DNA of 64,000 nt, from NCBI RefSeq assembly GCF_014193255.1, contig NZ_JACHZB010000002.1, positions 372,001 through 436,000 on the forward strand, read 5' to 3'. Numbering within the stretch: the first letter of the stretch is position 1; each line of letters begins with the position of its first letter. This document shows positions 49,148 through 64,000 of the stretch, one piece after another. The notes under the pieces were generated by a model, which was not told the DNA's origin, ran no database searches, and was given only the letters and a program-made list of their open reading frames with translations. The DNA comes from Rhizobium sp. BK196 (GTDB taxonomy: Bacteria > Pseudomonadota > Alphaproteobacteria > Rhizobiales > Rhizobiaceae). Both the position numbers and the translations under genes were made by a program.

Positions 49148-50173
49148 ATGAAGCTCAAAGAGTTCGCAAAACAACTTGGATTGTCTCCCACGACCGTCAG
49201 TCGTGCGCTCAGTGGCTATCCCGAGGTAAGCGAGGTGACGCGTGCCCGCGTCGTTCAGGAGGCGGTGCGGCTGGGCTACCGACCGAACGTCAACGCGGTC
49301 AGGCTGAAAACCGGTCGGGTTGGCGCCATCGGCGTTGTCATGGGGCGCGCCGGCGAGTTTCATTTCGCAGAATTCATGGCCGGCATGGCGGAGCGTCTTA
49401 TCACCGAAGACACCGATATTCTGGTCATTCCGATGGCTGATCCCGAATATGATGCCGAGATGCAACTCTACAGGCGGCTGGCGGAAAGTCAGCGGGTGGA
49501 CGCGATCATCGTACATTCGCCTCGACCCAATGATCAGCGTATCGCGTTGCTGCACGAGTTAGGAATGCCGTTTCTCGTTCATGGCCGTTCAGACATAGAC
49601 GTGCCCCATCCCTGGCTCGATATCGACAATGAGGGAGCGGTGCGCCGTGCGACCTCGCATCTGATTGCTCTCGGTCATACGAGGATCGCCATGATCAATG
49701 GCCGTCAGGGCGCAACGTATGCGCTGCATCGCGACATCGGTTATCGCAGTGCCCTGCAGAGCCATGGGATCGAAGTCGATCCGCAACTGATCGCCAACGG
49801 CAATTTCACCGACGAAATCGGCTTCCGCTTTGCACGATCGTTTCTCGAACAGCCGAAGCGGCCGACCGCTTTTGTCGCGGGATCCATGATGACGGCGCTC
49901 GGCATTTACCGCGCCGCGCGTTCGCTGGGGCTCCAGATCGGCAGCGATGTCTCGGTTATCGCTCACGATGACGTCTTTCCCTATTTGACGGCCGACAATA
50001 TGGTCCCGTCGCTGTCGGCAACCCGGTCGTCGATGCGCGCCGCCGGTACGCGATGCGCCGATCTTGTCCTGCAACTTCTGGCCGGGCGTTCGCCCACGGA
50101 GATTCACGAATTGTGGCCGGTTGAGCTGATCCTGCGCGAGTCCACCGGCCCGGTGCGGGAGCTCCAGACGTGA
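49148..50173 (+). CDS. thuR: LacI-family repressor ThuR
   Basis: A 341-residue LacI-type regulator. The helix-turn-helix and hinge read MKLKEFAKQLGLSPTTVSRA then LSGYPEVSEVTRARVVQEAV. The sugar-binding domain follows with IDAIIVHSPRPNDQRI-like strands and DVSVIAHDDVFPYLT. It is divergent from thuE, matching the thuR-thuEFGKAB arrangement of rhizobia. It should respond to the imported disaccharide. No strong ribosome site precedes the ATG. Confidence 0.9.
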   Translation: MKLKEFAKQLGLSPTTVSRALSGYPEVSEVTRARVVQEAVRLGYRPNVNAVRLKTGRVGAIGVVMGRAGEFHFAEFMAGMAERLITEDTDILVIPMADPEYDAEMQLYRRLAESQRVDAIIVHSPRPNDQRIALLHELGMPFLVHGRSDIDVPHPWLDIDNEGAVRRATSHLIALGHTRIAMINGRQGATYALHRDIGYRSALQSHGIEVDPQLIANGNFTDEIGFRFARSFLEQPKRPTAFVAGSMMTALGIYRAARSLGLQIGSDVSVIAHDDVFPYLTADNMVPSLSATRSSMRAAGTRCADLVLQLLAGRSPTEIHELWPVELILRESTGPVRELQT

Positions 50174-50277
50174 GCGATTACTGTTTGTCAGGCCTGCGGA
50201 GAGCCGGACGGGCAGATCGGACAATCGGCGCGGGGAAGATTGGCGCTCGGTCCTCGCAGCCGCCTGACCCTGGCGAT

Positions 50278-51069
50278 TCAGGAGGCTTTGGCCTCGAAAG
50301 TCGGGGCGAAATCACCCAGCGATTTTGCCTTGAGGATCGTGCCTTCGATATCCTCCTCCACGATCGCTTCCAGATCGGCGAAGCTGTCGATGACGTAGTA
50401 GATCGGCTGGAGGATATCGATCCGATAGGGCGTTCTCAGCACGCTCATGAGATCGAACGGTCGAAATTCGCAAGCCTTGCCTTCCATTGCTGCTTTCGCT
50501 TCGCTTGGCGACGAAACGATTCCTGCGCCGAAGCAGCGACGGCCCTCCGGTGTATTGATCAGGCCGAATTCGACAGTGAACCAGAAGATACGGAATAGAT
50601 GCCATGAATAACCCTTGCCGAGGCGGACGGCAGTTTCGCCGAAATGCCGTACGAAATTGGCATAACTCCGATTGGTGAGCATTGGGCAGTGGCCGAAAAC
50701 CTCGTGGAACAGGTCCGGCTCCTCGATATAGTCGATATGCTCGCGACGGCGTAGGAACGTTGCGAGCGGGAATTTGCCTTGTGACAGAAGTTCATAAAAG
50801 CGCGAGGGCGGAATGAGCGCGGGTACGCCTTCCACGCCGAAGCCGGTGGTCTCGTTCAGGCGTCTATTCACATCGAGAAGCTGAGGCACCTTGTCGGGCT
50901 TCAGCCCCAGCATTTGGACGCCAGCAAGATATTCGCGGCAGGCCGTATCGGCGAGCAGCTTCATCTGACGCCGGTAGAGCTCACCCCAGATCGCATCTTC
51001 CTCAGGGGTATAGGCATATAAACCATCAGGGCCGGGCAATTTGGCGGTGTAGCTGCTTTCCTTGGTCAT
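50278..51069 (-). CDS. phhA: Phenylalanine 4-monooxygenase
   Basis: A 263-residue aromatic amino acid hydroxylase. The iron ligands are H122 and H127 in FHEVFGHCPML, with Glu in WFTVEFGLI. It converts phenylalanine to tyrosine using tetrahydropterin. ATG at 51069 follows GGAGG by 8 bases; upstream in-frame ATGs lack one. Divergent from an AsnC/Lrp regulator. The carbinolamine dehydratase gene that often follows is not present here, so pterin recycling must come from elsewhere. Confidence 0.93.
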   Translation of the reverse strand: MTKESSYTAKLPGPDGLYAYTPEEDAIWGELYRRQMKLLADTACREYLAGVQMLGLKPDKVPQLLDVNRRLNETTGFGVEGVPALIPPSRFYELLSQGKFPLATFLRRREHIDYIEEPDLFHEVFGHCPMLTNRSYANFVRHFGETAVRLGKGYSWHLFRIFWFTVEFGLINTPEGRRCFGAGIVSSPSEAKAAMEGKACEFRPFDLMSVLRTPYRIDILQPIYYVIDSFADLEAIVEEDIEGTILKAKSLGDFAPTFEAKAS

Positions 51070-51188
51070 ATTCTGATCCTCCCAAGATAGCGTTTCTGCC
51101 ATTATCACCCGGATTTAGAGGATTTTCTTTTCTTTCCTGGTGCCTATCGCCATAGTGGTGGCAAATATTCCCGAGCGGGATGTGAAAA
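51070..51188. promoter_or_regulatory. Divergent promoter region of phhA and its AsnC-type regulator
   Basis: About 120 bases with a small inverted repeat CTAT-CGCC-ATAG near 51145-51156, a possible operator for the regulator. Weak evidence. Confidence 0.3.
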
Positions 51189-51650
51189 ATGAAAGAATCT
51201 GGGAATTTTCGTCGCAAGCTTCTTCAGCTCATCCAAGCCGACGGTAGCCTTTCGCTGGCAGACCTGGCCGAAAAGGCCGGCATGTCTCAGAGTTCGGCCT
51301 GGCGGAAGATCCAGGAACTGGAGGCCGATGGTGTCATCCGCAAGCGTGTGACGCTGCTCGATCCCGGAAAGCTCGATCTCAAGCTCTGCGTCATCGCGCA
51401 TGTGACACTGGAGGATCATCACGAAGAGGCGGTAGCATCCTTCGCTTCGGTGGTGCTGGAGCGGCCAGAAATCATGGAGTGCTACGCCTTGTCAGGCGCC
51501 TTCGACTACATGCTGAAGATAAGGGCGAGGGACGTGGAAAGCTACGAAGCCTTCATGACGCGCTACCTCATGCGCAACCCGCATGTGCGCACGGTCGTAT
51601 CGAGCTTCGTGTTGCGTGAGCTGAAATTCTCGACCGAACTGCCACTCTGA
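51189..51650 (+). CDS. AsnC/Lrp-family regulator next to phhA
   Basis: A 153-residue regulator. The helix-turn-helix reads LLQLIQADGSLSLADLAEKA then GMSQSSAWRKIQELEADGVI. The effector-binding ferredoxin-like domain ends with VRTVVSSFVLRELKFSTELPL. It faces away from phhA, which it most likely activates in response to phenylalanine or tyrosine. Its end is 14 bases from the end of a second AsnC-type gene on the other strand. Confidence 0.9.
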   Translation: MKESGNFRRKLLQLIQADGSLSLADLAEKAGMSQSSAWRKIQELEADGVIRKRVTLLDPGKLDLKLCVIAHVTLEDHHEEAVASFASVVLERPEIMECYALSGAFDYMLKIRARDVESYEAFMTRYLMRNPHVRTVVSSFVLRELKFSTELPL

Positions 51651-51664
51651 GGCTCGCTGCCGGA

Positions 51665-52165
51665 TCATCGTGTGCTGTCGCCATGCCAACTGCCCGGCAT
51701 ATGTATCGGAAAGCCCTCGAATGTTTTCAGCGTGTCGAGCACGATCGAGGTCTTCACATGCTGCACAGACTCGTGGGGTAACAGAACGTCGTTGACGAAT
51801 TTGGAAAGGTCGGCGAGCCCGCGGGTCGCTACCTTCAGGTGATAGTCCATTTCGCCGGTCAGCGCATAGGCTTCGAGAACTTCCGGCAATCCGTTGATCA
51901 GCTGCGAAAACCTGCGGGCATTGTCTCTGTTGTGGGTGGCAAGCGTCACGGAAATGACCACCAGCATATCCAGACCCAGCTTCTGTTGATCCAGATAGGC
52001 CCGGTAGCTGCGAATATATCCCTCAGACTCCAGTCTGGTGCGCCGGCGCGAGCATTGCGAGGGGGAAAGCGCGATCCGCTCCCCCAGCTCGTTGTTCGTC
52101 AGGCGGCCGTCTTTTTGAAGCTCCTGGAGCAGGCGTAAATCCAATTTGTCGAGCTGTTCATCCAT
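51665..52165 (-). CDS. AsnC/Lrp-family regulator next to hpd
   Basis: A 166-residue regulator starting MDEQLDKLDLRLLQELQKDG, with helix-turn-helix RLTNNELGERIALSPSQCSR and an effector domain containing YALTGEMDYHLKVATR. The two AsnC proteins are clearly related, but the helix-turn-helices differ. It is divergent from hpd, and repeated TTTGCAT-like motifs sit between the two genes. It probably controls the hpd-hmgA run. Confidence 0.9.
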   Translation of the reverse strand: MDEQLDKLDLRLLQELQKDGRLTNNELGERIALSPSQCSRRRTRLESEGYIRSYRAYLDQQKLGLDMLVVISVTLATHNRDNARRFSQLINGLPEVLEAYALTGEMDYHLKVATRGLADLSKFVNDVLLPHESVQHVKTSIVLDTLKTFEGFPIHMPGSWHGDSTR

Positions 52166-52196
52166 TGCGTAAAATCTCCAAAATCCTCACGAACCG

Positions 52197-52268
52197 TGCA
52201 TAGTCTCTTCCTCAGGCATGAAGAATGCAAGAACTTTGCATGCGTTTTGGGCCACACTTTGCATAGTC
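52197..52268. promoter_or_regulatory. Repeated TGCAT sites between the AsnC regulator and hpd
   Basis: TGCATAGTC occurs at 52197-52205 and again at 52260-52268. Between them lies TGCAA-GAACT-TTGCA, a perfect inverted repeat (about 52226-52240), continuing as TTTGCATGC. Multiple spaced copies suit the multimeric Lrp/AsnC proteins. Inference. Confidence 0.5.
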
Positions 52269-52292
52269 AAATCCAGTCCTCAGGAGGAGAAA

Positions 52293-53402
52293 ATGGGTCC
52301 TTTTCCGCATGATGCGCCGCCCTCCGAAATCACCGCCGAGAACCCGGCCGGCACCGACGGATTCGAATTCGTCGAATTCGCCCATCCCGAACCCGAGAAG
52401 CTGCGCGAACTCTTCACGCGCATGGGCTACATCCCAGTCGCAAAGCACAAGACGAAGGACATTACCGTCTGGCGCCAGGGTGACATCAACTATGTCCTGA
52501 ATGCGGAAGTCGGCAGCCATGCTGCGCGTTTCGTCGCAGAGCACGGTCCCTGCGCTCCGTCGATGGCATGGCGCGTGGTCGACGCCAGACACGCATTCGA
52601 TCACGCCGTTTCAAAAGGCGCCGTGCCCTATGACGGCGACGACAAGGCGCTCGACGTCCCGGCGATCGTCGGTATTGGCGGCTCGCTGCTCTATTTCGTC
52701 GAGACCTACGGCGCGAAGGGATCGGCATACGATGCCGAGTTCGACTGGCTTGGCGAGCCTAACCCGCATCCCGAAGGGATCGGTTTTTATTATCTCGACC
52801 ACCTGACTCACAACGTCTTCCGCGGCAACATGGACAAGTGGTGGGATTTTTATCGAAACCTGTTCAATTTCAAGCAGATCCACTTCTTCGACATCGATGG
52901 GCGCATCACCGGTCTGGTGAGCCGCGCCATCACCTCGCCTTGCGGCAAGATCCGTATTCCGCTGAATGAATCGAAGGACGATACGAGCCAGATCGAGGAA
53001 TATCTAAAGAAATACAGAGGTGAGGGCATCCAGCATATCGCCGTTGGAACGGAAGATATCTACGAGGCCACCGACAGGCTTGCCGACAATGGTCTGCGCT
53101 TCATGCCGGGGCCCCCGGAAACCTACTATGACATGTCCTATGAACGTGTGAACGGCCATAGTGAACCTGTCGAGCGCATGAAGAAGCATGGCATCCTCAT
53201 CGACGGCGAAGGCGTGGTGAATGGCGGCATGACGAAAATCCTGCTGCAGATCTTCTCCAAGACTGTCATCGGCCCGATCTTCTTCGAATTCATCCAACGT
53301 AAGGGCGACGAGGGCTTCGGCGAGGGGAATTTCCGCGCTCTCTTCGAGTCGATCGAGGCCGATCAGATCAAGCGTGGTGTCATCGGGACCGCGGCGGAGT
53401 AA
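52293..53402 (+). CDS. hpd: 4-hydroxyphenylpyruvate dioxygenase
   Basis: A 369-residue non-haem iron dioxygenase. Two vicinal-oxygen-chelate modules are seen; iron ligands are expected at His in YLDHLTHNVFRG, His in GEGIQHIAVGTED, and Glu in FFEFIQRKGDEGFGEGNF, the family's signature C-terminal segment. It converts 4-hydroxyphenylpyruvate to homogentisate. ATG at 52293 follows AGGAGGAGAAA; the frame is open further up without a ribosome site. First gene of the tyrosine operon. Confidence 0.95.
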   Translation: MGPFPHDAPPSEITAENPAGTDGFEFVEFAHPEPEKLRELFTRMGYIPVAKHKTKDITVWRQGDINYVLNAEVGSHAARFVAEHGPCAPSMAWRVVDARHAFDHAVSKGAVPYDGDDKALDVPAIVGIGGSLLYFVETYGAKGSAYDAEFDWLGEPNPHPEGIGFYYLDHLTHNVFRGNMDKWWDFYRNLFNFKQIHFFDIDGRITGLVSRAITSPCGKIRIPLNESKDDTSQIEEYLKKYRGEGIQHIAVGTEDIYEATDRLADNGLRFMPGPPETYYDMSYERVNGHSEPVERMKKHGILIDGEGVVNGGMTKILLQIFSKTVIGPIFFEFIQRKGDEGFGEGNFRALFESIEADQIKRGVIGTAAE

Positions 53403-53417
53403 ACTCTCGGGGTCACG

Positions 53418-53443
53418 TCGCGCGTCTGAAAGGGCGCGCGGCG
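53418..53443 (+). terminator. Intercistronic hairpin between hpd and hmgA
   Basis: GTCGCGCG and CGCGCGGC can form an 8-bp stem (one G-T pair) in the 72-base gap between the two genes. There is no T-run, so it may only attenuate transcription or protect mRNA. Confidence 0.35.
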
Positions 53444-53474
53444 TTGCAAGAGTTTCCGGGGGAGGAGTTGAGCA

Positions 53475-54836
53475 ATGGACCAGACATCGATCCAGGCTTC
53501 CGAGGGTGAAGCAGCTATTGCGAACAAGCTGAAATATATGCCGGGGTTCGGCAACGACTTCGAAACGGAGTCGCTTCCCGGCGCCTTGCCGCAGGGCCAG
53601 AACAGCCCTCAGAAATGCAATTACGGTCTTTATGCCGAGCAGCTTTCCGGCTCGCCGTTTACTGCGCCGCGCGGGACGAACGAAAGGTCCTGGCTTTATC
53701 GCATTCGCCCGAGTGTGCGTCACACAGGCCGCTTCTCGAACGCTTCCTACCCGCTCTGGAAAACCGCGCCTTGCCTGGACGAGCATTCGCTCCCCCTCGG
53801 GCAGCTTCGCTGGAATCCCATTCCCGAGCCAACCGAGAAACTGACGTTTCTTCAGGGGGTGCGGACAATGACGACGGCGGGCGATGTCACGACCCAGGTT
53901 GGCATGTCGGCCCACGTCTATGTCTTCAATAAGGACATGGTGGACGATTACTTCTTCAACGCCGATGGTGAGCTGCTGATCGTGCCGCAGCTCGGCGCCA
54001 TCAGGGTGTTCACCGAAATGGGCATCATGGATGTAGAGCCCCTGGAAATATGCCTTATCCCTCGCGGCATGATGTTCAAGGTCCTGTGCAGCGGTGAGCA
54101 GACCGTCTGGCGTGGATATATCTGCGAGAATTACGGCGCGAAATTCACCCTGCCGGACCGCGGTCCCATCGGCGCCAACTGCCTGGCGAATCCGCGCGAC
54201 TTCAAGACACCCGTCGCCGCGTTCGAAGACAAGGAAAAGGCTTGCCGCGTCCATGTGAAGTGGTGCGGAAAATTCTATGTCACCGATATTGGTCATTCAC
54301 CGCTCGACGTGGTGGCCTGGCACGGCAATTATGCCCCCTTCAAATACGATCTGCGGACATTTTCGCCTGTTGGCGCGATCAGCTTTGATCACCCTGATCC
54401 GTCGATTTTTTCGGTGTTGACCGCCCCGACCGAAGATGCCGGCACGGCCAATGTGGATTTTGTGATCTTTCCACCGCGCTGGCTGGTAGCCGAGCACACT
54501 TTCCGTCCGCCCTGGTATCACCGCAATATCATGAGCGAGTTCATGGGCCTGATCCATGGCCAATATGACGCGAAGGAGGAGGGTTTCGTCCCCGGCGGCA
54601 TGAGCCTACACAACATGATGCTTGCCCACGGGCCGGATGCGCTCGCTTTCGAAAAGGCATCCAATGCCGAGCTCAAGCCTGTGAAGCTGGATGACACCAT
54701 GGCCTTCATGTTCGAGACCCGCTATCCGCAGCAATTGACGAAATACGCAGCCGAGCTTGAAACGCTGCAGGATGATTACCTGGAATGCTGGAACGGCCTG
54801 AAACGCAAGTTCGACGGGACCCCCGGTATCAAGTGA
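53475..54836 (+). CDS. hmgA: Homogentisate 1,2-dioxygenase
   Basis: A 453-residue cupin enzyme, the usual length. It begins with [20 protein letters not shown], the family start, and carries [36 protein letters not shown] and [12 protein letters not shown], which hold the iron-binding His/Glu residues. It opens the ring of homogentisate to maleylacetoacetate. GGGAGGAG precedes the start. Confidence 0.95.
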
Positions 54837-54885
54837 TGACATCAAGTGAAGATCGGCCAGGCATCCTCTGGCACGGGAATGGGAC

Positions 54886-55911
54886 ATGAAGCTTGCGACG
54901 TTGAAAGACTCCACGAGAGATGGCCGGCTCGTTGTCGTCTCCCGCGACCTTACCTGCTATTCCGAAGTCGGTCACATTGCCCGCACTTTGCAGGCGGCTC
55001 TCGATGACTGGGAGCACGTTGCCCCAAGACTCGAACTGATTGCCGAAGGCATCGAGACCGGAGGCCAGCCGACGACCCGGTTTCACGAACATGACGCCGC
55101 ATCGCCCTTGCCGCGGGCCTACCAATGGGCCGACGGTTCGGCCTACGTCAACCATGTCGAATTGGTACGCAAGGCGAGGGGCGCCGAAATGCCGGCGAGT
55201 TTTTGGACCGATCCGCTGATGTATCAAGGTGGTTCGGACGGGTTCCTCGGGCCGCGCGATCCGATCGTGGTGGCTGACGAAGCTTATGGGATCGATATGG
55301 AGGGGGAGGTTGCCGTCATTACCGGCGACGTTGCCATGGGCTCCAGTCCGGAAACTGCGCGCGATGCCATCCTTCTGGTGATGCTCGTCAACGACGTGTC
55401 GCTGCGCGGTCTCATACCCGACGAGCTGGCAAAGGGATTTGGTTTCTTCCAGTCCAAGCCGGCATCAGCATTTTCCCCGGTCGCGGTGACGCCGGACGAG
55501 CTCGGAGAGGCGTGGGATGGCGGCAAGGTGTGTCTGCCGCTGCTTGTGAGCCTGAACGGCAAGCCATTCGGCAAGGCGAATGCCGGCATCGACATGACGT
55601 TTGATTTTGGCCAGCTCGTCGCCCATGCAGCCAAAACCCGCAATCTGGTGGCCGGAACGATCATCGGCTCGGGCACGGTTTCCAACAAGCTGGATGGCGG
55701 AGCGGGCAGGGCGGTCGAAGACGGAGGGGACGGTTACTCATGCATCGCTGAAGTACGGATGATTGAGACGATCGAGTCCGGGTCGCCGAAAACTCCATAC
55801 ATGAAGTTTGGGGACCATGTTCGCATCGAGATGAAGGATCATGCCGGCCACTCGATCTTCGGAGCGATTGAGCAGACGGTTGAGAAGTATCAGGGGGCTG
55901 GCCTGCAGTGA
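54886..55911 (+). CDS. Fumarylacetoacetate hydrolase-family protein
   Basis: A 341-residue FAH-type hydrolase starting MKLATLKDSTRDGRLVVVSR. The core has MYQGGSDGFLGPRDPIVV, IDMEGEVAVITGDV with metal-binding acidic residues, and GTIIGSGTVSNKL. In this place it should hydrolyse fumarylacetoacetate to fumarate and acetoacetate, the last step of the pathway. It is shorter than eukaryotic FAH but typical of the bacterial group. Its stop overlaps the maiA GTG start by four bases. Confidence 0.9.
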   Translation: MKLATLKDSTRDGRLVVVSRDLTCYSEVGHIARTLQAALDDWEHVAPRLELIAEGIETGGQPTTRFHEHDAASPLPRAYQWADGSAYVNHVELVRKARGAEMPASFWTDPLMYQGGSDGFLGPRDPIVVADEAYGIDMEGEVAVITGDVAMGSSPETARDAILLVMLVNDVSLRGLIPDELAKGFGFFQSKPASAFSPVAVTPDELGEAWDGGKVCLPLLVSLNGKPFGKANAGIDMTFDFGQLVAHAAKTRNLVAGTIIGSGTVSNKLDGGAGRAVEDGGDGYSCIAEVRMIETIESGSPKTPYMKFGDHVRIEMKDHAGHSIFGAIEQTVEKYQGAGLQ

Positions 55912-56540
55912 ATAACGTCATTCTTTACGATTACTGGAGGTCATCGGCGAGCTATCGCGTCCGTATTGCGCTCAATCTCCTGGCGATCGACTACAAAACG
56001 GTACCCATCAACCTGTTGGAGGGAACGCACAGGAAGCCGGAATATCTGGCGCTCAACCCGCAGGGGTTTGTGCCGACATTGGTAATCGACGGGAAAACGC
56101 TGATCCAGTCGCTGGCAATCATCGAGTATCTGGCCGAGCTTCGGCCGGAATGCGGATTACTGCCGCCGGATATTGCCGATCGCCAGAAAGTGCGCGCCTT
56201 CGCATACGCGGTCGCCATGGACATCCATCCCATATGCAACACCCACGTCGTGGCGCATCTCATGACCGTAACGGACAAGGCCGACGCTCGCGAGGAATGG
56301 ATGAAGCATTTCATCACCGACGGACTTCGCAAACTGGAAGCCATGATTAACGGAGCCGATGGAGAGTTCAGCTTCGGAGATACACCGACGATGGCGGACC
56401 TCTGTCTTGTTCCCCAGGTCTACAATGCCCGCCGCTGGGGAGTGGACATGACCGATTTCAAGCGCATCGTCGATATCGATGGCAGATGCGCCAGACTGCC
56501 GGCCTTCCAGGCGGCCCATCCTGACCGCGCGAAACCTTGA
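55908..56540 (+). CDS. maiA: Maleylacetoacetate isomerase
   Basis: A 210-residue zeta-class glutathione transferase from GTG at 55908. It has the zeta motif SSASYRVRIALNLL (the SSC-type N-terminal active site has SSA here), NLLEGTHRKPEYLALNPQGF and IQSLAIIEYLAE for glutathione binding. It isomerises maleylacetoacetate to fumarylacetoacetate using glutathione. It is the last gene of the tyrosine run and is translationally coupled to the hydrolase gene. Confidence 0.93.
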   Translation: MNNVILYDYWRSSASYRVRIALNLLAIDYKTVPINLLEGTHRKPEYLALNPQGFVPTLVIDGKTLIQSLAIIEYLAELRPECGLLPPDIADRQKVRAFAYAVAMDIHPICNTHVVAHLMTVTDKADAREEWMKHFITDGLRKLEAMINGADGEFSFGDTPTMADLCLVPQVYNARRWGVDMTDFKRIVDIDGRCARLPAFQAAHPDRAKP

Positions 56541-56618
56541 CCCAAAACCAGCTCCGGCGGAATGATCCCGAGTCTTGCCGGTTGTTTGATCGAGCCACCG
56601 AGATACTGCCTGAGCTGA

Positions 56619-59600
56619 TCATCCCTCAAAGAGAACAAACGCTGCCCAGAGCGATGGATCGCTGGCCTTTTCGATTTTGCCGCCTATGGCCTCGATGCGG
56701 GTCCTTCGGAGTGCTGCGGCATAATCGAGCTTGTCTTCCGTCAACATCTGATAGTAGCGCGCCATGAAATTGGCGGTGCCTTCGTCATCGACCGACCACA
56801 GAGTGAGCAGTGAGCGCCTGACCCCTGCAATGGCAAGCGCCGTCGGCAGACCGCGAACATTGCCTATGCGGCTTGGATCGCCAAGTGCCGTCTGGCAGGC
56901 CGATAACACGACGAGATCGGTTGAGGAAAGATCCCAGTTCATCAGTTCGCGTGCATAAAGAATGCCGTCATCATCATTGACATCCGGCTCTTGCGCTCCG
57001 ACTTTGCCGGCAACGATGAGGCCGCTGCGCCATAATGCGTCGGTGGTTTCCTCATCGGCATCAGCTGCAAAGAAGCCGTGGGTCGCAAGATGGATGATGG
57101 AAGCGTCGGCTGAAGCCTTGCGGATCGGTGTTTCCATACCGGTGGTTCCACTCAACGAAACCACGTCGAGGCCGGCAGCTTTCAGCTTATTTCCCACCTC
57201 ATGGATCTCACGGCGCGTAAAGGGCAGAGCGCGTTGATGCTGGTATTTCAAATCGCCGACGACGAGCGCCTTTTCGCCTGGTATCGGCCCGTCGCGCCTG
57301 GGCGCGAAGAGGATCGCATCCTCCCGCGTCAGTATGTGCACCTCGAATGCCTCGTCGAGATGTCTGCCATCGTCCGTCTTCATCATCGCGAATGGGATGC
57401 TGTAGAGGGCTCCGTCGGGAACGATATAAAGCTGCGTCTTGTCTTCGAGCACATCCTTCAGCGGGCCGAAAAGCGACTGATAGAGCTTGCCGAAGCGCCT
57501 GTCCGGATCCTCTTCTGCTGCTGCCTGCTTGATGATCGCGCCAAGGGCGCCGAGATCGAAGATGACGGGTACCTCACCCTTGCGACGCACGATCGCTTGA
57601 AGCTTTGAATCCGCGCTGTCGGCATCGCCATTGCGCGCGCGCCGTGAACTGACGAAGAAGTCCACCATCGCCGCTTTTGTACCGAGGACGTCTTCCACGG
57701 ATTGCGTGGCGATGTTTTGGCCGAGTGATTTCGGCAACCGATCGCGGGCCGCTTTCAGTTCGCTCAGAATCTGACGGACTTCGGTGTCCACATCGCCCGA
57801 AGAAAGCAATTCCTGCTGTTGACCCAAAAGCCTTACAACGGTTTCAACGAGCCTATGCACATCGGGATCGGTTGTTTCTGCCACCATGCGCAGGCGGGTG
57901 CGCTCGCCGCTCTCCATGGTTTTCCAGCGCGCCACCGCGCCGGCATAGGGCGTTGCGGCTTCCGGACTGGATTGCGCGAAATCGCCGAATGCGCGCAGCA
58001 TATCATCGGCAAGGCGACGCGTCGTTTCCGCGACATAGCGGTTGCCTGACGACCCGACCTCGCGCAGCATCCAATCGAACATCTTCTCGTCAAGCTGTTG
58101 GAAACTTTGCAACGTCTCGGCATCCTTGCGACGCATGTGGGTTGTCGCGACCTCGAGCAATGCGTCGAAGGTCAGGGGATGGAGCTCGCCAAAGGCTCCT
58201 TTCGAGATCTCGTAGGCTTCCTGGCGTAGAGTAAGGGCACGCCCGGTGTCGTCCCGCATTTCGAACTGCTCGGCTGCGAGCTGCGCTGTTTTGATCCGCA
58301 TCAGGTCGGGCGCGCTGCGCCAGTCCTTTATTGCCGCCATCTCCTCCAGCGACTTGTCGTCCATCCGCGCGTGGCGAAGGAAATAAGCCTTTGTATATTC
58401 CTTCCACTTTTCGCCCTGCGCGGCATGTTCCGAGTGTGGGTCGGCGATTTCCGCACCGATCTTGCGCTGCTCTTCGAAGGCCTTTAGCGCTCCATCTCTG
58501 TCCCCGAGGGCGAGCAGATCGAGGCCAAGATTGGAGGCACTGACCAGCGCCTGGATACTTGCATGTCCGTAATGGGCGATACGCAGTTTGAGGAGGTCTT
58601 CGTCAATACCACGGGCGACTTCAGGATGGTCGACCATGCGTAATGCTTCGGCATAATTGTTGGCGGTCCGCCAGGTCAGCGGCACCTGATCTCCAAGCGA
58701 CGAAAGGGCCGTCTGATAGACTTCTTCCTGGATGTTGAGGCCGGATGCGACGGCGCCGTTGTTGACGAGGAACGAAGCCAGATTGTCGCCGCCCGAGATC
58801 GCTTCTTCGGATGTTTCGCCGTATTGCCGTTGCAGCATCTCGCGAGCTGTTTGGGCCGTCCGGAGTGTCGCATCGATGTCGTCGCCGGACCTCTGCAGAA
58901 ATCGCGAATATTCAAACCACAGCGTGGCGAGTTCGCGGCTTTCGATTTTGGCTGCATTGGTGCCGAGACCTTCCGTATAAAAGGCCTCGGCTGCCGCTAT
59001 TTGCCCGCTATCCGCAAAGGACTGTGCAGCCGTCGTGTATTCCGAAAGCGTGAGGCCGTAGTTTATGCCGGCGGCGGCATGGCGCAAGGCCGACTGCAAG
59101 CGGATGAAACCTTCCTGCGTGTCCCCGGTTTCCAGAAAACTATAGGCGCCGATGATGCGAGCCATGATCTCGGATTTGCTGTCCTCTCCCGACATGGCGA
59201 CGGCTTTTTCGATATAGGCCTTGACTGATTTCTGCTGGCTATCACGATCGCCAAGCATGCCCTGAGCGTGCAGGAGCAGGTTGTAGAACAGGGCGATTCC
59301 ATCGCTGTCCAGCTCGTTCGTCAGCTCGCCACGGACCGCGAGTGCGTCTCGTGCCAGACGCTGCCAAGCATTCACCTCTGCATCCAGCTTCAACGCCTGG
59401 AGGCCGAAACGCCCCGCCAAAATGCGCTCTCCCTCCTTGCGGAAGTCCTGACTTGCCGACCATGCAAGCGCACGGCCGGCGTTCGGGTCGCGATCGGATA
59501 GTTGGTTGACCTGCTGCCCAATTTCTGCTGCGCGCGCTTCGGCGGACCGATGTTGGCCGGTGGCAGCTGGAGGGGCGGTGAGGAGAAGCGCAAGCAGCGC

Positions 59601-59654
59601 GGCGCCGGCAACCGGCAGGGGATGTGTTTTTACTACCATTATCCGGATCAACAT
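56619..59654 (-). CDS. Exported TPR-CHAT domain protein (caspase-like protease fold)
   Basis: A 1011-residue protein. The N-terminus looks like a signal peptide (LPVAGAALLALLLTAPPAAT), so export is likely. About residues 35-600 are helical tetratricopeptide-like repeats, with repeated LxAxxLGLDLLALGDxxxA-type patterns. The CHAT domain fills about residues 690-1011, with the catalytic His in HLATHGFF (H859) and Cys in VLSACQTALGD (C920) both intact. CHAT proteins are caspase/separase-related proteases or scaffolds. Start uncertain: 59654 or 59639; no ribosome site at either. It is convergent with maiA and has no partner gene adjacent. Substrate unknown. Confidence 0.88.
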   Translation of the reverse strand: MLIRIMVVKTHPLPVAGAALLALLLTAPPAATGQHRSAEARAAEIGQQVNQLSDRDPNAGRALAWSASQDFRKEGERILAGRFGLQALKLDAEVNAWQRLARDALAVRGELTNELDSDGIALFYNLLLHAQGMLGDRDSQQKSVKAYIEKAVAMSGEDSKSEIMARIIGAYSFLETGDTQEGFIRLQSALRHAAAGINYGLTLSEYTTAAQSFADSGQIAAAEAFYTEGLGTNAAKIESRELATLWFEYSRFLQRSGDDIDATLRTAQTAREMLQRQYGETSEEAISGGDNLASFLVNNGAVASGLNIQEEVYQTALSSLGDQVPLTWRTANNYAEALRMVDHPEVARGIDEDLLKLRIAHYGHASIQALVSASNLGLDLLALGDRDGALKAFEEQRKIGAEIADPHSEHAAQGEKWKEYTKAYFLRHARMDDKSLEEMAAIKDWRSAPDLMRIKTAQLAAEQFEMRDDTGRALTLRQEAYEISKGAFGELHPLTFDALLEVATTHMRRKDAETLQSFQQLDEKMFDWMLREVGSSGNRYVAETTRRLADDMLRAFGDFAQSSPEAATPYAGAVARWKTMESGERTRLRMVAETTDPDVHRLVETVVRLLGQQQELLSSGDVDTEVRQILSELKAARDRLPKSLGQNIATQSVEDVLGTKAAMVDFFVSSRRARNGDADSADSKLQAIVRRKGEVPVIFDLGALGAIIKQAAAEEDPDRRFGKLYQSLFGPLKDVLEDKTQLYIVPDGALYSIPFAMMKTDDGRHLDEAFEVHILTREDAILFAPRRDGPIPGEKALVVGDLKYQHQRALPFTRREIHEVGNKLKAAGLDVVSLSGTTGMETPIRKASADASIIHLATHGFFAADADEETTDALWRSGLIVAGKVGAQEPDVNDDDGILYARELMNWDLSSTDLVVLSACQTALGDPSRIGNVRGLPTALAIAGVRRSLLTLWSVDDEGTANFMARYYQMLTEDKLDYAAALRRTRIEAIGGKIEKASDPSLWAAFVLFEG

Positions 59655-59971
59655 AAATTACGAGAAACGCTAAAAGAGCTAGAGCGGGGCGACCATTCGT
59701 CGAGAGGCAGGAGGATCGTGATGCTCGGATGGCTCGCGACCTCTGTCCTTGCGGTCGTCGAGGTCACCGCTGGCTGAGCGTCCCTAAAGTCGGGGACGGA
59801 TACCGTGCCTGATCCCGTGGCATGAACAGAAGAAGGGCGGACGATATCGACCGCGTGGTGATATACTCGGTCTAGGAGGAGGTCTCGCGCCGGCAGTCGA
59901 GGGGTTTGCGCGGTGACACAGGGCTTGGCCATGGCATTCCGCCTCGGCCCAGGAAGGGAAGGAGACAACGC
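59655..59971. other. Intergenic region between the CHAT gene and gfa
   Basis: About 320 bases that should hold both divergent promoters. The only coding candidate is the tiny frame at 59718-59777. Confidence 0.4.
59718..59777 (+). CDS. Possible 19-residue hydrophobic micropeptide
   Basis: GTG-ATG start with a perfect AGGAGG 3-4 bases upstream, encoding MLGWLATSVLAVVEVTAG, then TGA. The composition suits a membrane micropeptide or leader peptide, but such a short frame can occur by chance. No homologue was recognised. Confidence 0.25.
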   Translation: MMLGWLATSVLAVVEVTAG

Positions 59972-60544
59972 ATGAACAATGTAGCGATCCACCCAATCGT
60001 GGATTCAGGATACCGGGCGACCGATGCGTCCTTTGTCGGCGGCACGCTCGTGTGCAATTGCGCGAGCAATCCGGTGAAAGTCCGCGTCACGGGCGATATT
60101 GCCCATAACCATGCCTGTGGCTGCACGAAATGCTGGAAGCCGAAGGGTGCAGTCTTTTCCGTGGTTGCCGTGGCGCCGACCGCTAATGTCGAGGTTCTGG
60201 AGAACGGAAACAAGCTGGCGGTCGTCGATCCGTCTGCGCTGATCCAGCGCCATGCCTGCAAGGATTGCGGGGTCCACATGTACGGACCTGTCGAGCGCGA
60301 CCATGCCTTTCAGGGCCTTTCCTTTGTTCATCCCGAACGGTTCGAGGAGAAGGGCTGGGCGGCACCCGGCTTTGCCGCTTTCGTATCGTCGATTATCGAA
60401 AGCGGATATGACCCTGGCAAAATGGGCGCCGTACGCTCGCGTCTCAAGGAAGTTGGGCTTGAGCCTTACGATTGCCTGTCGCCCGGGCTGATGGACTTGA
60501 TCGCCACCTGGACGGCGAAAAAGATGGGAGTTCTCGCGGCCTGA
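59972..60544 (+). CDS. gfa: S-(hydroxymethyl)glutathione synthase
   Basis: A 190-residue zinc protein of the GFA family. The zinc-binding cysteines appear as [22 protein letters not shown] and [12 protein letters not shown]. Known members speed the formation of hydroxymethylglutathione from formaldehyde and glutathione, the first step of formaldehyde removal. The ATG at 59972 follows AAGGAGACAACGC. The formaldehyde dehydrogenase gene that often neighbours it is not here. GFA-fold proteins of other function exist, but the spacing of cysteines and length fit Gfa. Confidence 0.9.
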
Positions 60545-60566
60545 TGTAGCGCAGATTCGCCGGATG

Positions 60567-60587
60567 CCGTCGCGATCCCCGCGACGG
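60567..60587. terminator. Hairpin downstream of gfa
   Basis: CCGTCGCG and CGCGACGG form a perfect 8-bp stem around ATCCC, 23 bases after the gfa stop. A second hairpin, CGCCGGA-CAA-TCCGGCG, lies at 60620-60636. Neither has a long T-run, but both lie between convergent genes and probably end transcription from either side. Confidence 0.55.
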
Positions 60588-60713
60588 TGTTCCGGCGCGA
60601 CATAGATTTCATGATATTGCGCCGGACAATCCGGCGATTGGTATCTCTACCACTAGCTGAAGTTCCTCGGCATTTCAGCGGCCACGTCTTTCGCGTGGAT
60701 GCTCCCTATTGCC

Positions 60714-61361
60714 CTAGGCTGTGCATCCCTTGAGGAAAATATCCGCACACATTTTCGCCCTCGCAGCGATCTCTTCGATATTCGGCGGCGGAAGCTGGCG
60801 TAGCATGGCGGCGCGCTGGGGTTCCATGATCATCATACCGCGCAGCATGCCGCAGGCAGCGTGCGGGTCTTCGAGCTTGATCAACCCGTGCTCCACCTGG
60901 CGGCGCAGCCAGTTTTCCATCGACGCGTTGGTGCGATTGATTGCCTTTTCGTAAAAGGAGGTGGCGAGTTCGGGAAAGCGATCGGATTCGCCGATGACGA
61001 GTCGGGTAATCGTGATCGTGTCCTGCGAAAGCGTCAGCATACCATAGGCCATCAGCATGCGCTCCAGACCCTGGTGAAGCCCGGCCGTCCCCAGTGTGCC
61101 GGGGTCGAGCGCCAGCAGGAAGCGTCCGGTGCGATCCGAGACCATTTCGGAAAACAGATCCGCCTTCGTTGGAAACAGGCGATAGAGCGTCTTGGTCGAA
61201 ACGCCGGCTTCCTGGGCGATCGCGGCGATGCAGGCCGCGGCATAACCGTTCTCGTGAAACTGTTTATTGGCGGCCTCGATGAGCACGCTACGCGTATCCT
61301 CGTCACAACGCACCTGCGGCCGGCCACGCGGCTTCTTCTCGATATTGTGATTTTGGACCAT
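60714..61361 (-). CDS. TetR-family repressor of the efflux operon
   Basis: A 215-residue regulator. The N-terminal helix-turn-helix reads NGYAAACIAAIAQEAGVSTK then TLYRLFPTKADLFSEM, the TetR pattern. The C-terminal domain should bind a ligand. It is divergent from an EmrAB-type pump and almost certainly represses it, as in RmrR/RmrAB-like systems of rhizobia. Inverted TTTTCCAAA-type sites lie in the shared promoter. Confidence 0.9.
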   Translation of the reverse strand: MVQNHNIEKKPRGRPQVRCDEDTRSVLIEAANKQFHENGYAAACIAAIAQEAGVSTKTLYRLFPTKADLFSEMVSDRTGRFLLALDPGTLGTAGLHQGLERMLMAYGMLTLSQDTITITRLVIGESDRFPELATSFYEKAINRTNASMENWLRRQVEHGLIKLEDPHAACGMLRGMMIMEPQRAAMLRQLPPPNIEEIAARAKMCADIFLKGCTA

Positions 61362-61415
61362 TGTTATTTTCCAAATTCCCGTTGACTTCTCTTTTCTAAC
61401 TCATATTTTGGAAAA
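61353..61415. promoter_or_regulatory. Candidate TetR operators between the repressor and efflux genes
   Basis: TTTTCCAAA (61367-61375) and TTTTGGAAAA (61406-61415) are inverted copies. A further TTTTGG at 61351-61356, overlapping the repressor start, pairs with the first copy. Their position would let the regulator repress both its own gene and the pump. Inference. Confidence 0.5.
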
Positions 61416-61498
61416 CATCAAGTTTCCTAAATGAAGCTTGAGCCAAATTTCAAGGCCGCGGCCGAGACGACAGCGACCTTCCCCCAAGGAGAGAAACG

Positions 61499-62710
61499 AT
61501 GTCCGCCAAGACGCTGCATGCCCTGAATAATAATGCCGCCCCGGCCGATATATCGGTAACAGAAGCGGCAGCCGCCGCCACGCCTGCAACGCTTGACGCA
61601 GGCAAGACGCCGCTTGTCAACAATCCCGCCGCCTCCGCTCCGGCTTCGGAAGCACCGGCCCGCAGACGCGGCCGCCGCTCGCTGCTAATTGGTGTGGCAA
61701 CCATCGCCATCATCGCCGCTGCCACCTATTACGGCCACAATTACTGGACGGTCGGCCGTTTCGAGGTCGCGACCGACGATGCCTATGTCAAAGCAGATAG
61801 CACGGCGGTCGCGCCGAAGGTTTCCGGCTATCTTGCCGAGGTTCTTGTCAGCGACAATGAAACGGTAAAGGCCGGCCAGCCGCTAGCCCGCATCGATGAC
61901 CGCGATTTCCGCACGGCGCTCGATCAGGCGAAAGCCGATGTCGCAGCCGCCGAAGCGACCGTCAATGCCAAGCAGGCTTCGCTCGATATCCAGCAGTCGA
62001 CGATTGCCGCCGCCCGGGCCACACTCGATGTCGACAAGGCCAATGAGACCTTCGCCGAGCAGAACAATAAACGCTATACCAACCTTGCCACCAGCGGTTA
62101 TGCGCCGGTCCAGACGGCCCAGCAGGCAGCTTCCGCAATTGCGGCCGCCCAGGCAACGATCGTTCGGGACACGGCGGCTCTCGACGCCGCAACCAAGCAG
62201 GTCGATCTTCTGAATGCCGAACTTGCCCAGGCCAAGGCGACGCTTGCCCGTGATCAGGCAGTCGCGCACCAGGCTGAGCTCAATCTCTCCTACGCAACGA
62301 TCGTCGCGCCGGTAGACGGCGCGGTCGGCAACCGCACCCTGCGTGTCGGCCAATATGTCCAGGCCGGCACTCAGCTGATGGCTGTGGTGCCGACGACGGC
62401 TGCCTATATCGTCGCCAACTACAAGGAGACGCAGCTGACCGATGTCCATGCCGGTCAGCCGGTCGATATCGAGGTCGATATGTTCCCCGGCCGCACCTAT
62501 CACGGCCATGTGGACAGCCTGTCGCCGGCAAGCGGCCAGGAGTTTGCCCTGCTGCCGCCCGATAACGCCACCGGCAACTTCACCAAGGTTGTCCAGCGCA
62601 TTCCGGTCAAGATCGTGCTTGATGGCGATGCCGCAGAAAAGGGCGATCTCCGCCCCGGCATGTCCGTCCAGCCAAGCATCGACACCAAGGTCGATGCTGC
62701 CGGCAACTAA
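61499..62710 (+). CDS. EmrA-type membrane fusion protein of an efflux pump
   Basis: A 403-residue HlyD-family protein. A cytosolic N-terminal tail of about 60 residues precedes one membrane helix (LLIGVATIAIIAAATYYG). The periplasmic part has a split lipoyl-like domain (KADSTAVAPKVSGYLAEVLV ... LSYATIVAPVDGAVGNRTL) around an Ala-rich coiled coil (about residues 140-260). It links an inner-membrane DHA2 transporter to an outer-membrane channel. AAGGAGAG precedes the ATG. It resembles RmrA of Rhizobium, but the name is not asserted. Confidence 0.92.
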   Translation: MSAKTLHALNNNAAPADISVTEAAAAATPATLDAGKTPLVNNPAASAPASEAPARRRGRRSLLIGVATIAIIAAATYYGHNYWTVGRFEVATDDAYVKADSTAVAPKVSGYLAEVLVSDNETVKAGQPLARIDDRDFRTALDQAKADVAAAEATVNAKQASLDIQQSTIAAARATLDVDKANETFAEQNNKRYTNLATSGYAPVQTAQQAASAIAAAQATIVRDTAALDAATKQVDLLNAELAQAKATLARDQAVAHQAELNLSYATIVAPVDGAVGNRTLRVGQYVQAGTQLMAVVPTTAAYIVANYKETQLTDVHAGQPVDIEVDMFPGRTYHGHVDSLSPASGQEFALLPPDNATGNFTKVVQRIPVKIVLDGDAAEKGDLRPGMSVQPSIDTKVDAAGN

Positions 62711-62733
62711 GCGAAGGGACAGGAGATCGTGTC

Positions 62734-64000
62734 ATGTCCAGTATCGCAACAACATCAGGCGCTATCCCGCAGCCGCGCGCCAGCACAAAGGCCAGCGCAA
62801 GGGAGTGGATCGCCGTTCTCGCCGGCATGATCGGCGCCTTCATGGCGATCCTCAATATTCAGATCACCAATGCCTCGCTTCTTGATATCGAGGGCGGCAT
62901 CGGTACGGGTGTCGACAACGGCGCCTGGATCTCTACCTCCTACCTGATCGGCGAGATCGTCGTCATTCCGCTGACGGCCTACTTCAGCAACGTTTTCTCG
63001 TTTCGCCGCTATATCCTCGTCAATTCCATCCTCTTTCCGCTCTTCTCTATGGCCTGTGCCTTCGCGCATGACCTCGGCACGATGATCCTGCTGCGCGGCC
63101 TGCAGGGCTTTGCCGGAGGCGTGTTGATCCCCATGGCCTTCACCATGGTGCTGACCAAGCTGCCGAAGAGCCAGCAGCCGCTCGGCCTTGCCGTCTTTGC
63201 CCTGTCGGTCACGTTTGCCCCAGCCATCGGTCCGACGATCGGTGGTTACCTGACGGAGAATTACGGCTGGCAGACGATCTTCTTCATCAACACCATCCCG
63301 AGCCTCATCATGGCGGCCGCTCTCGCTCTGACGCTGGAGAAGCAGCCGATGCAGCTTCATCTCCTGAAGGAGGGCGATTGGGCCGGCATCATCACCATGG
63401 CAATCGGCCTTTCGGCTCTGCAGACCGTGCTCGAAGAAGGCAACAAGGACGACTGGTTCTCCTCGCCCTTCATCGTCAAGCTCGGCATCGTGGCCTTCGT
63501 CTTCCTGGCCGCCTTCATCTGGATCGAGCTCACCGTCAAGAAGCCGCTGGTGAAGCTGCGCCTACTCACTCAGCGCAATTTCGGCATCGGTGTGCTGGTC
63601 AATGTGCTGGTTGGCGTCGCACTCTTCGGCACCGTCTACATCCTGCCGCAATATCTTGGCCAGGTTCAGCGCTACAATGCCGAACAGATCGGCAATGTGC
63701 TCGCCTGGACCGGCCTGCCTCAGCTGCTGCTCATCCCGCTGGTGCCTGTGCTGATGAAGCGGTTCGATGCCCGCTATATCGGCTTTCTCGGAATCTCGAT
63801 CTTCGCGATCAGCTGCTTCATGAACATCACGCTCTCGGCCAACAATGGCGGCGACCAGTTCTGGATTCCGAATATCGTGCGCGCCATCGGCCAGGCCCTG
63901 GTGCTGACGCCGATCACGGCAATCACCACCGCCGGCATCGCACCCGCCGATGCCGCCGCCGCTTCGGGGCTGACCAATATGCTGCGCAATCTCGGCGGTG
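62734..64000 (+). CDS. EmrB/QacA-type DHA2 major facilitator transporter (truncated by the window)
   Basis: The first 422 codons of a 14-helix drug:proton antiporter, open at the right edge. It starts MSSIATTSGAIPQPRASTKA, followed by the first helices (VLAGMIGAFMAILNIQITNA with the DHA2 N-motif), and the motif C region FAPAIGPTIGGYLTENYGW. It lies 23 bases after the fusion protein and should form the pump with it. Substrates of such pumps include flavonoids and antibiotics; none can be named from the sequence. Confidence 0.92.
   Translation, partial: MSSIATTSGAIPQPRASTKASAREWIAVLAGMIGAFMAILNIQITNASLLDIEGGIGTGVDNGAWISTSYLIGEIVVIPLTAYFSNVFSFRRYILVNSILFPLFSMACAFAHDLGTMILLRGLQGFAGGVLIPMAFTMVLTKLPKSQQPLGLAVFALSVTFAPAIGPTIGGYLTENYGWQTIFFINTIPSLIMAAALALTLEKQPMQLHLLKEGDWAGIITMAIGLSALQTVLEEGNKDDWFSSPFIVKLGIVAFVFLAAFIWIELTVKKPLVKLRLLTQRNFGIGVLVNVLVGVALFGTVYILPQYLGQVQRYNAEQIGNVLAWTGLPQLLLIPLVPVLMKRFDARYIGFLGISIFAISCFMNITLSANNGGDQFWIPNIVRAIGQALVLTPITAITTAGIAPADAAAASGLTNMLRNLGG

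Follow-up and report, generated by a model that had tools for sequence, protein, structure and literature searches.

Proteases of the CHAT family are known chiefly as intracellular executioners, as in Craspase and in gasdermin activation. In Craspase, the TPR-CHAT subunit (Csx29) carries a platform of tetratricopeptide repeats (TPRs) followed by a C-terminal CHAT domain with a His-Cys dyad; it works in complex with gRAMP/Cas7-11 and RNA, and target binding rearranges its CHAT pocket (PMC9729208). In this study we examine a gene whose product has the same TPR platform, C-terminal CHAT domain and dyad, located at positions 56619-59654 on the minus strand of a 64,000-nucleotide stretch of Rhizobium sp. 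BK196 (contig NZ_JACHZB010000002.1, positions 372,001 to 436,000; hereafter the window). Unlike Craspase, the window protein bears a predicted export signal.

Other CHAT proteins have been described in various settings. HetF of Anabaena, which also combines CHAT and TPR regions, is tied to the envelope through the divisome (PMC8406250), a transmembrane CHAT protein has been mentioned near a Bacteroides type VI secretion system (PMC11854122), and CHAT proteins have been placed in the context of ECF54 sigma factors (PMC8999054). Our literature search returned no description of an exported CHAT branch, although most subscription papers lay outside its scope, making it weak evidence of novelty; the branch as a whole seems to have gone unnoticed.

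An export-type TPR-CHAT protein

The open reading frame (ORF) encodes 1011 amino acids from an ATG start, with an alternative in-frame ATG (M6) at 59639. Its CHAT caspase-like protease domain spans residues 722-1008 (56631-57491, on the minus strand like all features of the gene) and matches Pfam PF12770 at E 3e-56, with 191.4 bits against a cut-off of 24, bearing out the original prediction of a TPR-CHAT protein at this site; at E <= 0.001, it is the only PF12770 match in the host genome (6.0 Mb, 16 contigs). Upstream, a TPR_12 match (residues 291-358, 58581-58784, Pfam E 2e-11) lies inside a kinesin-light-chain-type TPR platform. The window protein represents a little-studied export-type form of an established domain family, CHAT.

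To place the protein among its relatives, we assembled its own family of 16 complete full-length members (the window's included), 15 of which were aligned, with identities of 26-92% to the window protein; the sixteenth, L229, was added after the alignment and likewise has the His and Cys. His859 (codon 57078-57080) and Cys920 (codon 56895-56897, the sole Cys codon of the ORF) are the putative catalytic residues. Both are present as first called, in HG and SAC motifs, and are invariant in all 15 aligned members. The pair is kept in 85/85 aligned CHAT ORFs, a set picked in part by similarity to the window protein and including one weak, C14-like match, and is invariant across 40 diverse CHAT domains whose identity to the window CHAT falls as low as 24%. 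A profile of these 40 domains, nearly all from export-type proteins, matches the solved chain 8rot at E 7e-14, and 8d9f and 7x8a at E 4e-9 and 5e-9, with His aligned to His and Cys to Cys in the alignments shown. We take 8d9f and 7x8a, along with 7zoq, to be Craspase entries. The window protein alone, run by phmmer against the PDB, matched nothing at E <= 0.01, whereas profiles did find matches.

The N-terminus of the protein, MLIRIMVVKTHPLPVAGAALLALLLTAPPAATGQ, is organized like a Sec signal: behind a basic n-region, residues 12 to 33 or so form a hydrophobic stretch free of charges, and cleavage may occur after G33 (AxG↓Q). Residues 1-33 (59556-59654) make up this signal-peptide-like segment. 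We scored such starts with a rule that calls for a basic n-region, an uncharged 10-residue core, and either small residues at -3/-1 or a lipobox. By this rule the n-region, h-region and small -3/-1 residues are all present in the window protein, and 16/16 own-family ORFs pass, compared with 0/16 internal stretches treated alike, so that the signal-peptide-like start originally proposed for this protein is upheld by rule. Elsewhere in the protein no hydrophobic segment exceeds this one, and starting at M6 leaves the signal intact; the annotated gene start in four of six plasmid records is the one used here, the other two records having no features.

Two further properties were assessed with respect to export. 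C920 is the only cysteine in 1011 amino acids, where about 13 are predicted from neighboring ORFs (Poisson P about 3e-6); among the 15 aligned members, the predicted mature part has no extra Cys in five, one in seven, two each in L039 and L045, and four, which could pair, in L040. The dN/dS ratio between the window gene and its 92% identical sister L020 is 0.17 for the whole gene and 0.20 for CHAT, which indicates purifying selection on the gene. Across the 33 signal codons it is 1.7, a value that rests on few sites. This apparent pattern of a varying signal segment and a constrained remainder adds support for export, and the signal-like starts, the low Cys content and the selection pattern together support the prediction that the window protein is exported.

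The TPR platform suggests what the protein may bind. An own-family TPR profile matches kinesin light chain (KLC) structures, KLC1/KLC2 chains, with a best E of 8.5e-23, in keeping with a KLC-type TPR. In KLC1, N301, N302, R327 and N344 have been named as contacts to bound peptides (PMC6214655). In our alignment, these positions coincide with the family-invariant residues N332 and N333 (58656-58661), R358 (58581-58583) and N375 (58530-58532), respectively, which supports a putative peptide-binding groove in the window protein.

Export signals across CHAT proteins of Pseudomonadota

According to the original prediction, an exported CHAT protease would be unusual. To see how the window protein compares with the wider family, we surveyed CHAT proteins of the phylum. 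PF12770 is present in 80/385 genomes of the alphaproteobacterial class sample; 63 of these entered the survey with one match each, the 17 left out comprising the host's own genome, fragments, weak matches and some full matches. Nineteen loci from other classes of the phylum, chosen from 17 families, were added, and loci whose ORF ran off the stretch (4/63 and 3/19) were dropped; one locus, L046, is counted both here and in the own family. The export rule is passed by 52/59 complete alphaproteobacterial CHAT ORFs (internal controls, 3/59), with a lipobox in 20 of the 52, and by 15/16 complete ORFs from the other classes (controls, 1/16), giving 4/75 for the internal controls overall. These counts are the rule's own: two positives, L109 and L132, were scored from a questionable start, and the negatives L096, L120, L126 and L217 show signals by eye, with over-extended frames or no basic residue. 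An earlier, looser rule had scored 69/85 CHAT ORFs positive against 50/239 other ORFs of the same loci; because that 85-ORF set is biased towards relatives of the window protein, it was replaced by the one-per-genome survey.

Export-type N-termini thus appear, as far as such a rule can tell, to be the norm among the CHAT proteins of Pseudomonadota surveyed, and the window protein has the N-terminus that defines this exported class. Export (by sequence) and an intact dyad survive from the earlier interpretation, while the idea that an exported CHAT protease is out of the ordinary does not. The interest of the window gene lies mainly in this wider class.

Inspection of the genes around CHAT in 41 chosen, non-random long-contig loci (L230-L269 and L052), reduced to 40 when a longer overlapping frame displaced the CHAT frame of L234, revealed a recurrent neighbor. 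A protein combining CHASE2 with a class III cyclase domain occurs in 14/40 loci (E <= 1e-100), from 13 families (one family giving two), always within 2 kb of CHAT; the partner models were built from loci later counted, eight of them in the case of the CHASE2-cyclase. Twelve of the 14 lie 619-1163 bp downstream of CHAT on the same strand, and CHASE2-cyclases make up 14/122 ORFs (>=150 aa) within 2 kb against 0/189 beyond 3.5 kb, the ORF lists including spurious frames. Pfam names for neighbors rest on selected members: CHASE2 and Guanylate_cyc were found on all three of the 14 that were scanned. Representative CHAT loci of the wider class include L265:10558-12690, L233:1995-4067 and L267:5938-8046. 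The gap between CHAT and cyclase holds an ORF in 12 of 15 loci viewed, eight with a signal-like start (227-364 aa, with frame extensions) and four that look spurious or unclear; Pfam gave no name to either of the two gap ORFs scanned. In L249, L260 and L261 the neighbor is CHASE2-like, the one scanned matching CHASE2 with no cyclase match. ShlB/FhaC-type transporters occur in 6/40 loci and two-partner secretion (TPS)-type proteins in 3/40 (Pfam on two and one, respectively). The CHASE2-cyclase, ShlB/FhaC and TPS neighbors all point to the envelope.

Two side observations concern the diversity of TPR-CHAT and exported CHAT proteins. A second putatively exported subfamily carries a G-x-N-x-x-GE-x-C-like motif soon after the signal in 16/63 alphaproteobacterial loci (among them L098, L099, L110, L117 and L122); the motif occurs in 0/16 own-family members and in none of the 19 other-class loci. 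Separately, an IMG/VR contig (L208:2277-6080) encodes a 1267-aa TPR-CHAT ORF with a signal-like segment near its start, adjoining a terminase large subunit (phrog_38, E 3e-28).

Genomic setting of the window gene

The window protein has few full-length relatives, and these are scattered. Among 36 genomes of the genus none gave a full-length match, and two hold partial matches to other CHAT proteins. Matches over at least 80% of the protein occur in 6/345 other genomes of the family and 1/384 other genomes of the class sample, as well as in 10 records of a plasmid collection (nine Shinella, one Sinorhizobium). The window gene is flanked on one side by genes for an Lrp/AsnC regulator, HPD, HGD, FAH and maiA (Pfam), and on the other by GFA, TetR and an HlyD/EmrA-like gene; its sister L020 (91-92% identity) has the same genomic setting. 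Spacing between maiA and GFA is 3431 bp in the window compared with 281 bp in G027 and 208 bp in G014, two congeners that lack a segment of about 3.3 kb, 56547-59808, at the same site (edges from blastn against G027, with a 5-base difference at one edge for G014). These are two of the 24 congeners with both maiA and GFA; in the other 22 the two genes were not seen side by side, so those genomes are uninformative on the site. In our reading, the lineage comprising the window and L020 gained the segment with the CHAT gene, though it may instead have been lost elsewhere; the gene is a stand-alone accessory gene in this lineage. Nothing was found to explain an insertion: the edges lack repeats of at least 14 bases, the window has no tRNA gene and 50000-64000 no Rfam match. 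Scans for promoters and terminators came out close to chance level and showed none on the strand of the CHAT gene.

The eight neighboring ORFs scanned include no evident partner, as the original prediction had stated, and the neighborhood comparison with other genomes that it called for yielded none shared across the own family. Clusters present in at least 3/15 own-family loci (named from sequence and annotated neighbors) are only ABC transporter ATPases, dehydrogenases and FAH-type hydrolases. A CHASE2-cyclase lies within 2 kb in neither the window nor the other 15 own-family loci. In L046, a class III cyclase without CHASE2 lies about 100 bp upstream of CHAT on the same strand, and L037 has a Fer2-cyclase without CHASE2 2.7 kb downstream. 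The host genome encodes three CHASE2-cyclases elsewhere.

Other arrangements were seen in passing. In Shinella sp. WSC3-e (L036:3838-7319), flotillin, OB-fold and PspA/IM30 genes are found close to CHAT; this envelope-stress-like grouping was not observed around the gene in the three other annotated records. In the host itself (L274:4087-9923, contig C1), a CHASE2-cyclase directly follows a 1273-aa FecR-TPR protein, a layout resembling that of CHAT and CHASE2 with FecR-TPR in CHAT's place.

Proposed function, alternatives and relation to known systems

We consider it probable, if by no means certain, that the window gene encodes a Sec-exported, soluble periplasmic, peptide-gated cysteine protease acting on an envelope partner. 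The signal would be cleaved on export, and an extended peptide or unfolded segment would then bind the TPR groove. By analogy with Craspase target binding, groove occupancy could gate an otherwise inactive CHAT site, and the active enzyme might cleave an envelope protein whose gene lies elsewhere in the genome. Action on envelope partners, as first proposed, is plausible for the window protein. For the class as a whole, the fact that most surveyed relatives look exported and 14/40 lie beside CHASE2-cyclases makes envelope sensing or signaling the most likely general function. A broader scheme, which we advance tentatively, would make most CHAT proteins of Pseudomonadota periplasmic TPR-CHAT enzymes of an envelope branch that has been overlooked, often belonging to a module whose other parts are a small exported protein and a CHASE2-cyclase relaying the signal to the cytoplasm. 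In this scheme the window protein, as a stand-alone member, would sense a periplasmic peptide with its KLC-like groove and might pass the signal on by way of one of the three CHASE2-cyclases elsewhere in the genome. If most CHAT proteins of a major phylum are indeed exported and linked to envelope sensors producing cyclic nucleotides, there would be a second, barely studied site for caspase-like proteolysis.

Several observations weigh against this assignment. The export rule is home-made rather than SignalP, and visual inspection, too, finds no signal in four of the 59 alphaproteobacterial CHAT ORFs (L053, L103, L139 and L148); a cytoplasmic location has also been predicted for a CHAT-TIR protein of Thiohalocapsa (PMC10907252). 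One Cys or none is found in 2/45 neighboring ORFs of at least 500 aa as well, and an unpaired-looking extra Cys occurs near residue 395 or 275 in 8/15 aligned members, seven with just that Cys and L039 with one further, while L045 has two extra; since a single extra Cys has no pairing partner, only the low Cys number, and not pairing, favors an oxidizing compartment. Asn and other groove residues of this kind are common in KLC-type TPRs, and are therefore not specific to the own family. Structure models built from few sequences reached a mean predicted local distance difference test (pLDDT) score of 36 for the full-length protein (two sequences) and 44 for the CHAT part (four sequences); both fall below 50, too poor to show the caspase-hemoglobinase fold of CHAT domains, and leave the gating step an analogy. 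Lastly, no common partner emerged from 15 own-family loci, and a cyclase is directly adjacent in only one of 16 (L046).

How the protein would sit once exported is the point on which the strongest alternative differs. An uncleaved signal anchor, holding the protein in the inner membrane with its TPRs and CHAT domain on the periplasmic side, would fit the AxG↓Q site of the window protein, which is weaker than the AFA↓Q of Shinella members, and has a precedent of sorts in HetF, a CHAT protein with one predicted transmembrane segment (PMC8406250). We regard this arrangement as unlikely, given the clear AxA sites in several own-family members and the lipobox, a hallmark of lipoprotein signals that are cleaved, in the 20 signal-positive alphaproteobacterial CHATs noted above.

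The protein could instead go further and cross the outer membrane, acting on other organisms around the cell. Its accessory presence, its relatives on plasmids (some sampled from soil or the rhizosphere) and the ShlB/FhaC or TPS genes at some loci of the wider class are compatible with such a role; the 16 own-family loci, window included, nevertheless hold no ShlB- or TPS-type gene that we could find, and lipoprotein-type relatives would be anchored to the cell, rendering this outcome distinctly unlikely. That the CHAT domain is a pseudoprotease or scaffold, keeping its dyad while acting by binding only, could be argued from the lack of any known substrate and of a partner gene shared across the own family, but the invariance of His and Cys in the 85 ORFs and the 40 divergent domains makes this very unlikely. 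A cytoplasmic defense protease of the Craspase or gasdermin kind with an incidental hydrophobic N-terminus is hardly credible, even though the TPR-CHAT proteases studied so far fit that description (PMC9729208, PMC12881547) and the gene is accessory, because a signal-like start recurs in 16/16 members, PADLOC has no match for the protein, and no Cas or effector gene lies among the eight neighboring ORFs scanned, Cas7-11 not having been searched for in the rest of the genome.

For the soluble periplasmic enzyme that we favor, the known systems each offer a partial counterpart. Kinesin light chain shares the KLC-type TPR with its Asn and Arg groove residues, a likeness confined to the TPR part; it is a eukaryotic motor subunit that binds cargo adaptors, unlike the window protein. 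The FxSxx-COOH TPR protein (NF040586) is alike over a TPR stretch (residues 238-535), at 72.9 bits, far below the 300-bit cut-off. Bacterial C14 metacaspases and orthocaspases belong to a caspase-like clan, as CHAT does, yet to a different Pfam family. Some metacaspases have N-terminal helices that are perhaps signal peptides, and one from Trichodesmium carries a CHASE2 fusion (PMC3501461); a signal resembling that of twin-arginine translocation (TAT) has been described for YS pseudo-orthocaspases (PMC6426788). Transmembrane helices, perhaps including signal peptides, were reported in 15% of 671 C14 sequences (PMC3501461), as against an export-type start in 52/59 CHATs here, by differing methods. 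HetF, finally, has its CHAT domain at the N-terminus (aa 1-555), with one predicted transmembrane segment and, to judge from a figure legend, the TPR region after it (PMC8406250), whereas the window protein runs in the order signal, TPR and C-terminal CHAT.

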